A program made the position numbers and the translations under genes. The notes under the pieces were generated by a model. The model ran no database searches and was not told where the DNA came from. It was given only the letters and a program-made list of their open reading frames with translations. DNA of 64,000 bases from Sycon ciliatum (taxonomy: Eukaryota > Porifera > Calcarea > Leucosolenida > Sycettidae): positions 5,218,375 to 5,282,374 of the forward strand of contig NC_088647.1 of assembly GCF_964019385.1 (NCBI RefSeq). The letters run 5' to 3'. Positions 12,685 to 44,170 of the stretch are shown here, in pieces. The number at the start of each line of letters is the position of its first letter. Within the stretch, counting starts at the first letter, position 1.

Positions 12685-15600
12685 ATGTACGAGCTACGCC
12701 AACTTTCTGACGTTTGGCCAACCTTGCGAGGCAGCCAGGTTAGTGCTGGATTTGTGAGCATTCTGGGTGAAATATTTTGCACGATTTATTTGTGCTGGTG
12801 CAAGGAAATATCACCAGTGAGCAAACTTCTATCTTGTAGCCGGATAAAGATCACCTATAGTATTTCTCGCGGTGGGTACTCAGCATTTTTGTGCTTTTGC
12901 CGAACATGGATACAGCAACATAATTCTGGAACTCCACATTCGTTGCTATGATTGTGATATGAGTGCGCACATACCGGTAGTATTATTCATTGCTTTATAA
13001 CAACATTATTTCATTTATTTCTCTTCCACAATTGACAAAATCAAATTTCAATGATGAAAATAGAATATACAAATAATCTGCGAGGAGGTACATGCCGAAC
13101 AAGTAACGTAGTTGCGTGATGTCTGCGGCCTTCATCCTATGCTTGCACCATTACACCTCTAAATCGGTGCAGTGGCGATACTAGTATCAGCAAACGAGAA
13201 GTCAATGCCACTTATTCAGTTTTTACATGGTCAGAGCAGTGACACTAAAGAGAGCATGAATGGTGTTAGTGTCAAAGCAGCTTAATGGCTGGAGCAGTAA
13301 GCACACAACAAAACATGCTACAACCCCGACAACAATGGGGACAACACGTACAAAGTCAACACAGTGACACCCGTTGCGCTGTACTTATTTTGCACACAGA
13401 GTTCAGGCTTCAGCTTAGCGATGTACTCAATCTCTACTCACTAGTACAGACAAGTGATATTCTATTGTCTGTCTGCATTTGAATGTTGAAGTGCGAATAG
13501 ATACTGTGTTTGTGCACTCAGGGGCGTAGCTGGTCTCCCTTTTAGGGGGGGGGGGGGGGGGGGGTGCACGGCCGCATACAATGTGTGTAGGATGGCTGGT
13601 GCATGTCAATCATGGTCATAACGTGCATGCTGAACCTAGGTCGAATGTTTAGGGGGGGGGGGGGGGGGTGCACGTGCCCCCCCCCCCCCCATGCAAGCTA
13701 TGCGCCTGTGTACTGCACTCAGGCAAGCTGGTGACAATTTCAGGTGACACGCTGTGGCTGACTTCTTTCTTTCTTGACCTCTTGGCTTTGCTTTTCAGTC
13801 GTTGAAGTCACTGCTCCAGGAGCATTATGATGCTCGCAAGAAGGTCAATCTCAAGGTCTGGGTTCATCCCGGTCATGTGATTGTTGCACATGGACAGACA
13901 GGTTAGCATACACAGCAGTGGGATGGCCGCTGATGATGCTCTGGACTGTTTTGGAAGATCGGCACAAACACCCACTAATCCACGGGAGCGCAGTGCACTG
14001 AGAACCTGAGAAGCATTCACTTGCATGTCCAGCTCTCTTTGGGAATAGCCACTTTGGACAGTGTGTGCAGGGAATGATGATGACTGCTGTAACAGTCACA
14101 CAATTTTGCAGTACTTATGGCCAGTACACTGATGTTCAGGCCATGCATTTATTGAAGCCAGGTATGACTTGGTCTTTGGTGTGTTCTAGCCATGGCACTA
14201 TACTCAAACTGCACGTTTTCCTCGGACACCTGGCGACTGAATGCATCTGGAAAACAGAACTGCATGTGGCTAGTGTGACCTGGAAGGCCAAATGTACACC
14301 CTCTCATTGCATTTTACAATGTGCACAAGGGAAGAGCAAGCCAATCTTCTCAAGCTGAACAAGTGTTCCTTTTACGCGTTCACAAGTTCAATGGTTTTCT
14401 CGTGGTATGCGTACGGAAAAATTTGTCTCTTTTCATGTATGTACACTCAGACCTGGTTTATCCGGATCCCTCGCCATCTGGAAAACGAGAGAGCTTGCTT
14501 GGAAGCTCAGGGCTACGCTATGCTTTTTTGCCTTGATGACCTAGACAAAAAAAAGCATAGGGATGTTATAAATTCTTTAAAAAATTCCTTTTTTTTAAGA
14601 CATAACCTGGGATTCGAACCCGCACTATCGCGCCCTGCATGCATCCCCCGATACACTTCGCATACATACTAATTCTTCCAAGTTGCTTCACATTATGATC
14701 TTGCATTTGAAAGCCCTATTTGAATATGCATTGTGGCCTGCCGTTTTTGATGGTACGGTACGGTAGGGATAGGTACGGGACAGATACGATCGAGGGTAAT
14801 ACGACACCGGCTCCCTTACCGTACCATCAAACACAGCTGGCCACATACAGCTGCCCGCAATATTCAAATAGGGCTTTCAAACGCAAGATCATAACGTGAA
14901 GCAACTTGGAAGAATGGTAAATGCGAACTGTATGGGGGAATGCATGTAGGGCGATAGTGCGGGTTCGAATCCCAGGATATGCCTGAAAAAAATAGGAGAA
15001 TTGAAAAATTTATAACATCCCTATGATTTTTTTGCCGTCAGATACGGGATAGCGCCAGGCGTGACACAAACAAACACACAAACACCAAATTAAAGCTGTG
15101 TGGACCCTGGCTAGCGCCAGACGTTACTGAAGTAACGTCTTCTGCATAGCGACGGGAATAATCATTGGTTACCGATTTACAGCATATGTCCTGCATACAT
15201 ACAGTATGTGTGTTCGATAATCCGGTTCCCTCACCTATCCGGATATTCTGTGGAAAAAGGATGTGTGCGGTTAAGCGAGGTCTGACTGTATTTCATGTTC
15301 TACATGTAGCAGCCACACCTTCCTTTGATTTCATTTTGGCGAAGTCCCTATCTGTTTGTGGTGTGCTATACTTATTTGTGCATTAGTGCTGTCGTTTGAT
15401 GTGCTGCCACGGTCCAAGCACATCCTGGGATCGGCTGGCTCTGCTCTCTATTCACAGGTATGTAGCTGAGAACTAGTACACAAATCGTTTACTCATCATG
15501 GCCTGTTGCGTAGCTAGCCACTCTTCATAGTTGATACCCAGACAACCGATACTGACTGTAGCTGCAATACGCCATGTGGCCTTTAAATTGTGATAACCTC

Positions 15601-44170: not shown

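Follow-up and report, generated by a model that had tools for sequence, protein, structure and literature searches.

Gene model of HPS6

The window, by which we mean the whole 64,000-nucleotide stretch that was analysed (C5:5218375-5282374, from an assembly of 538 Mb in 313 contigs), carries on its forward strand a predicted coding chain that runs from an ATG at position 12685 to a TAG ending at position 44170. We identify its product as HPS6, a subunit of a complex that acts in cellular trafficking and has been connected with human albinism. The chain consists of 27 predicted exons (Table 1) and encodes 854 amino acids, or 855 codons including the stop. All 26 introns are of the GT-AG type, and their phases are consistent throughout the chain. 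Furthermore, every donor carries a G at +5 and every acceptor a C or a T at -3 (26 of 26 in both cases). The introns range from 171 to 4503 nt in length, with phases 0, 1, and 2 represented 15, 7, and 4 times, respectively, and the median exon length is 78 nt.

Exons were picked by eye on the basis of splice sites and open frames, and the chain was fixed before the Pfam scan. The picking was not blind, the earlier hypothesis and the two end points being known beforehand. One extra exon candidate at 41.64 to 41.72 kb was dropped because its inclusion threw the C terminus of HPS6 out of frame, and it was the human HPS6 sequence that decided the matter. The exon borders given here are predictions from the sequence.

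An initial annotation of this DNA had described 29 exons joining in phase to 887 codons. Both ends of that model (12685 and 44170) were recovered exactly and the phases were indeed consistent, but the count was not reproduced: it exceeds the present chain by two exons and about 32 codons. The many-exon structure as such is supported at the sequence level by the 27 predicted in-phase exons with their GT-AG introns, and the earlier observation of a multi-exon HPS6 gene largely holds.

Table 1. Predicted exons of HPS6 in the window. Gene finder, outcome for each exon with a simple gene finder; bits, score of the HPS6 N-terminal (HPS6 N) or HPS6_C model when the exon was omitted.
Feature	Position	Strand	Gene finder	Omission score or Pfam coverage
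Exon 1 (aa 1-18, ATG)	12685..12738	+	exact	HPS6 N from 27.4 to 22.5 bits
Exon 2	13799..13901	+	exact	HPS6 N 22.6 bits
Exon 3	15387..15457	+	missed	HPS6 N 20.4 bits
Exon 4	15729..15824	+	exact	HPS6 N 17.4 bits
Exon 5	17595..17661	+	overlapped	HPS6 N match absent from list
Exon 6	18557..18697	+	exact	HPS6 N 18.0 bits
Exon 7	19147..19197	+	exact	HPS6 N 20.4 bits
Exon 8	21279..21375	+	exact	HPS6 N 21.3 bits
Exon 9	23395..23452	+	missed	within HPS6 N match (aa 3-247)
Exon 10	24356..24461	+	overlapped	at most one residue (its first) in HPS6 N match
Exon 11	28965..29127	+	exact	outside Pfam matches
Exon 12	29525..29672	+	exact	outside Pfam matches
Exon 13	31718..31783	+	exact	outside Pfam matches
Exon 14	32811..32918	+	exact	outside Pfam matches
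Exon 15	34858..34902	+	exact (loosest setting)	outside Pfam matches
Exon 16	35074..35139	+	exact	outside Pfam matches
Exon 17 (largest, 373 nt)	35627..35999	+	exact	HPS6_C from 58.2 to 53.3 bits
Exon 18	36313..36401	+	exact	HPS6_C 52.9 bits
Exon 19	36632..36709	+	missed	HPS6_C 41.9 bits
Exon 20	39177..39257	+	exact	HPS6_C 54.5 bits
Exon 21	39669..39808	+	overlapped	HPS6_C 50.6 bits
Exon 22	40024..40123	+	missed	HPS6_C 39.3 bits
Exon 23	40533..40592	+	missed	HPS6_C 39.2 bits
Exon 24	41357..41415	+	missed	within HPS6_C match
Exon 25	42269..42330	+	exact	exons 25-27 omitted as a block, HPS6_C 40.4 bits
Exon 26	42818..42861	+	missed	in the 25-27 block (40.4 bits)
Exon 27 (stop TAG)	44132..44170	+	missed	in the 25-27 block (40.4 bits)

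Identity of the product and controls on the exon chain

The initial annotation had taken the product for HPS6 and had proposed a comparison of the translated exons with HPS6 profiles. Against all of Pfam, the predicted protein matched HPS6_C (PF20468) over residues 487 to 852 with an E value of 7.9e-15 (55.1 bits, cut-off 27), which bears out this identity. The HPS6 N-terminal domain (PF15702) matched the whole protein at residues 3 to 247 with an E value of 1.7e-5 and 24.2 bits, 2.8 bits below its cut-off of 27. When the two halves were scored separately, the N half (exons 1 to 10) reached 27.4 bits with PF15702, barely above the cut-off of 27, and the C half (exons 17 to 27) reached 58.2 bits with HPS6_C. 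As expected for HPS6, the N domain precedes the C domain within one predicted polypeptide.

The propeller/solenoid architecture is common to many coat and tether proteins, and the product could on this ground be another trafficking protein of that build, for example a VPS subunit. We consider this very improbable, as HPS6_C and HPS6 were the only families in all of Pfam to reach an E value of 0.1 or below, one further family standing at 0.15. A search of PDB sequences with the predicted protein gave no solved chain with an E value of 10 or below, and therefore no rival family is favoured by structures either.

We also considered whether the exons could be a chance assembly within 31 kb of DNA that does not code for protein. 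Where splice sites can be picked freely over long DNA, in-phase chains are often obtained; moreover, the hypothesis was known beforehand, and the omission at 41.64 kb was steered by the human HPS6 sequence. Set against this are the Pfam matches to a chain that had been fixed prior to the scan, together with exon omissions, shuffles, and a gene finder run with reverse controls, all of which reduce the probability of a chance assembly to a negligible level. Indeed, omitting exons lowered the score in 8 of 8 cases in the C half (exons 17 to 23 singly and 25 to 27 as a block) and in 8 of 8 cases in the N half (exons 1 to 8 singly). The single omissions covered exons 1 to 8 and 17 to 23. The drop was small for exons 17, 18, and 20, amounting to 4.9 bits for exon 17, which encodes 124 residues. 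Once the two halves had been shuffled in order (one shuffle each), neither matched any Pfam family.

The gene finder used a codon table derived from 2371 codons of other loci only and splice-site weights that followed the general animal consensus. Its background came partly from stretches already judged to be HPS6 introns, which introduces a mild circularity. At the loosest setting, it scored 138.6 on the forward strand versus 58.5 on the reverse complement and 30.7 on the reversed sequence, and it proposed 25 exons. Sixteen of the 27 HPS6 exons were recovered exactly, three were overlapped, and eight were missed, while six other exons were proposed. Stricter settings recovered 13, 13, and 8 HPS6 exons exactly.

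These results bear on whether the chain includes false exons or misses real ones, with a true count of, for example, 25 to 30. The earlier count of 29 versus 27 here, the disagreement of the gene finder at 11 of the 27 exons, its six additional proposals, and the position of exons 11 to 16 outside the Pfam matches (exon 10 contributing at most one residue to them) all lend this reading some weight. We nevertheless judge it somewhat unlikely, since the phases all agree, 26 of 26 donors have a G at +5, and exons 11 to 16 are all among the 16 recovered exactly at the loosest setting. With regard to the exons that the gene finder missed, 3, 19, 22, and 23 are backed by single omissions and 26 and 27 by the block omission, and exons 9 and 24 fall within the Pfam matches. 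Overall, the identification of the HPS6 gene is sound. Its place in a known family is well supported, and its structure is instructive; the intron contrast is interesting but unpolarised.

Repeats and other open frames in the window

Introns 4 and 14 of HPS6 contain one long inverted-repeat element (15976-16797 and 33843-34663), the two copies being 97% identical over 822 nt. Intron 7 harbors two direct repeats (19352-19698 and 20727-21073) of 347 nt that are 99.7% identical and about 1 kb apart, an arrangement resembling a mobile element that inserted recently and is bounded by terminal repeats. On the opposite strand within intron 10, a frame at 26240-27121 encodes an OTU-like cysteine protease (Pfam OTU, 1e-9) and is possibly part of a mobile element. 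Another minus-strand frame, at 22305-22883 in intron 8, resembles a retroelement gag on inspection by eye; it gave no Pfam match at an E value of 0.01 or below. On the plus strand of intron 14, a 203-codon open frame (33074-33682) matched no Pfam family, and the gene finder proposed an exon at 33131-33594 in this intron at two of its four settings. Outside the HPS6 gene, an AAA ATPase fragment on the minus strand (5946-6656; Pfam AAA, 2.9e-6) probably belongs to a separate minus-strand gene.

HPS6 copy number and the BLOC-2 partners

A protein search of the whole genome with HPS6, in which the best candidates were scored, listed 25 matches with an E value of 1 or below. All of them fall at the HPS6 locus, and hence the best-scored candidates gave no sign of a further copy, retrocopies included. 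Genome searches with PF15702 (E value of 0.001 or below) and PF20468 (E value of 1 or below) returned nothing, even at the HPS6 locus, probably because matching proceeds exon by exon. The 14 control genomes were likewise silent for both models. Because the models were silent here despite the presence of the gene, and in the controls too, these searches are uninformative on absence. A search of the assembly for COX1 likewise gave no match at an E value of 0.001 or below, whereas 8 of the 14 control genomes did match.

HPS3 and HPS5, which the initial annotation had suggested looking for, were both found in the same genome. HPS3_N matched at C4:1467841-1468611 above the cut-off, with an E value of 4.5e-16 (3.1e-21 for the frame). 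HPS3_C gave a weak match below the cut-off (E value of 0.61), which lies about 26 kb downstream of HPS3_N and shares its strand; this model also matched one control archaeon below the cut-off. Part of the HPS3 region reads N, and three further candidate coding stretches lie on the HPS3 strand, making it likely that HPS3 has several exons.

The propeller model of HPS5 (Beta-prop_HPS5) matched at C4:10805027 with an E value of 6.8e-67, and was above the cut-off in 1 of the 12 matches listed. Since it also passed the cut-off in 1 of the 14 control genomes, an archaeon, the match to TPR_HPS5 matters. The frame at C4:10804964-10811737 (L011:1465-8238), which spans 2270 codons from stop to stop and 2257 from the first ATG, matched both Beta-prop_HPS5 (2.4e-67) and TPR_HPS5 (1.1e-10, residues 1859 to 2031) above the cut-off. 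RING matches below their cut-offs make the end of the frame weakly RING-like. Because the propeller and TPR domains share one frame, the coding part of HPS5 seems to be intronless, that is, a single coding exon. Its middle is long, of low complexity, and rich in Ser, Thr, and Ala, and the differing codon-position composition of this part leaves some room for an in-frame intron.

With HPS3, HPS5, and HPS6 all predicted to be encoded, this organism likely has a working BLOC-2, and its BLOC-2 genes suggest that it is an animal. As judged from its family, the HPS6 product would combine a beta-propeller with an alpha-solenoid and would assemble with HPS3 and HPS5 into this complex, and its role would be to steer endosomal transport carriers to lysosome-related organelles. 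The available passages of PMC10193976 describe HPS6 as a propeller/solenoid protein, and those of the review PMC12493267 state that BLOC-2 directs endosome-derived tubules toward lysosome-related organelles. The initial annotation had also put forward that BLOC-2 is older than usually assumed. This is no new point, as an ancient origin is already in print, claimed by More et al. 2024 according to the same passages of PMC12493267. The present HPS6 finding leaves the age of BLOC-2 unchanged, the complex being already regarded as ancient.

Exon structures compared with human

The predicted protein resembles human HPS6 in that both Pfam HPS6 domains occur in order and in that the lengths are similar (854 versus about 775 amino acids). 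In contrast, the 27 predicted exons found here correspond to a single exon in human, as the gene descriptions in the accessible parts of PMC8779141 and PMC10615116 state, in line with what the initial annotation had stated. HPS5 differs as well: the 2257-codon frame is twice the human length, human HPS5 having 23 exons and 1,129 amino acids according to the accessible part of PMC8807545, which also gives 17 exons for human HPS3. HPS5 and HPS6 of this genome are alike in being BLOC-2 partner subunits of the propeller and solenoid family, and their exon structures seem to be mirror-imaged with respect to human, with 1 exon in human versus 27 here for HPS6 and 23 versus 1 for HPS5.

Among the top-ranked matches in the open-licence literature, we found no statement of this contrast, and HPS6 was absent from the top-ranked matches on retrogenes and intron loss. 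No paper describing HPS6 as "intronless" was found in the open-licence literature. The accessible parts of PMC5068940, PMC3878950, PMC3502862, and PMC3419718, which mention HPS5/pink or BLOC-2 or refer to the 2010 paper on an early origin, give no HPS6 gene structure.

Intron loss or intron gain

The HPS6 introns could represent a lineage-specific gain, the ancestral gene having been intron-poor as in human. The inverted-repeat element shared by introns 4 and 14 at 97% identity, which indicates that mobile DNA enters HPS6 introns, could be taken in favour of such a gain. We find it quite unlikely, however. An all-against-all blastn comparison of the 26 introns (E value of 1e-5 or below, low-complexity filter on) revealed no introner-type likeness over a full intron including the splice sites. 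No match between introns extended to the splice sites, which speaks against the recent multiplication of a mobile intron, and several introns hold repeats well away from the splice sites. Furthermore, the phase spread of 15/7/4 looks ordinary, and 26 gains in one gene would be many, given animal intron evolution.

By inference, HPS6 intron loss in the vertebrate line, which the initial annotation had suggested, is probably the better reading than gain in the present genome. The ancestral HPS6 would have been rich in introns, and the present genome would have kept them, while the coding introns would have been stripped in the line leading to vertebrates. HPS5 of the present genome would have followed the reverse course and been reduced to one coding exon. 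If every coding intron disappeared in a single step, spliced mRNA probably served as the intermediate, and a copy of it would be the likeliest route of wholesale intron removal for HPS6 and HPS5 alike. We are highly confident in the overall picture of an HPS6 gene with one detected copy and 26 predicted spliceosomal introns, for which an intron-rich ancestor with probable loss in vertebrates is the simplest account, with an apparent reverse course in HPS5 and spliced-mRNA copying as the likeliest route for both. It is a more tentative proposal that two BLOC-2 genes shed all coding introns in separate, reciprocal events (HPS6 toward vertebrates, HPS5 here) by way of intronless mRNA copies, with the other subunits intron-rich.

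One genome combines an HPS6 predicted to be intron-rich with an apparently intronless HPS5, which inverts the human arrangement. A few further animal genomes would make the probable loss of HPS6 introns in vertebrates datable, and would let the recurrence of whole-gene intron erasure among the subunits of one complex be tested. A known case of such an event is amphioxus SYCP1. The replacement proposed for vertebrate HPS6 and for HPS5 of the present genome would be of the same kind as the one described in the accessible part of PMC5803294, in which a many-exon parental gene gave way to a single-exon copy that assumed its function.
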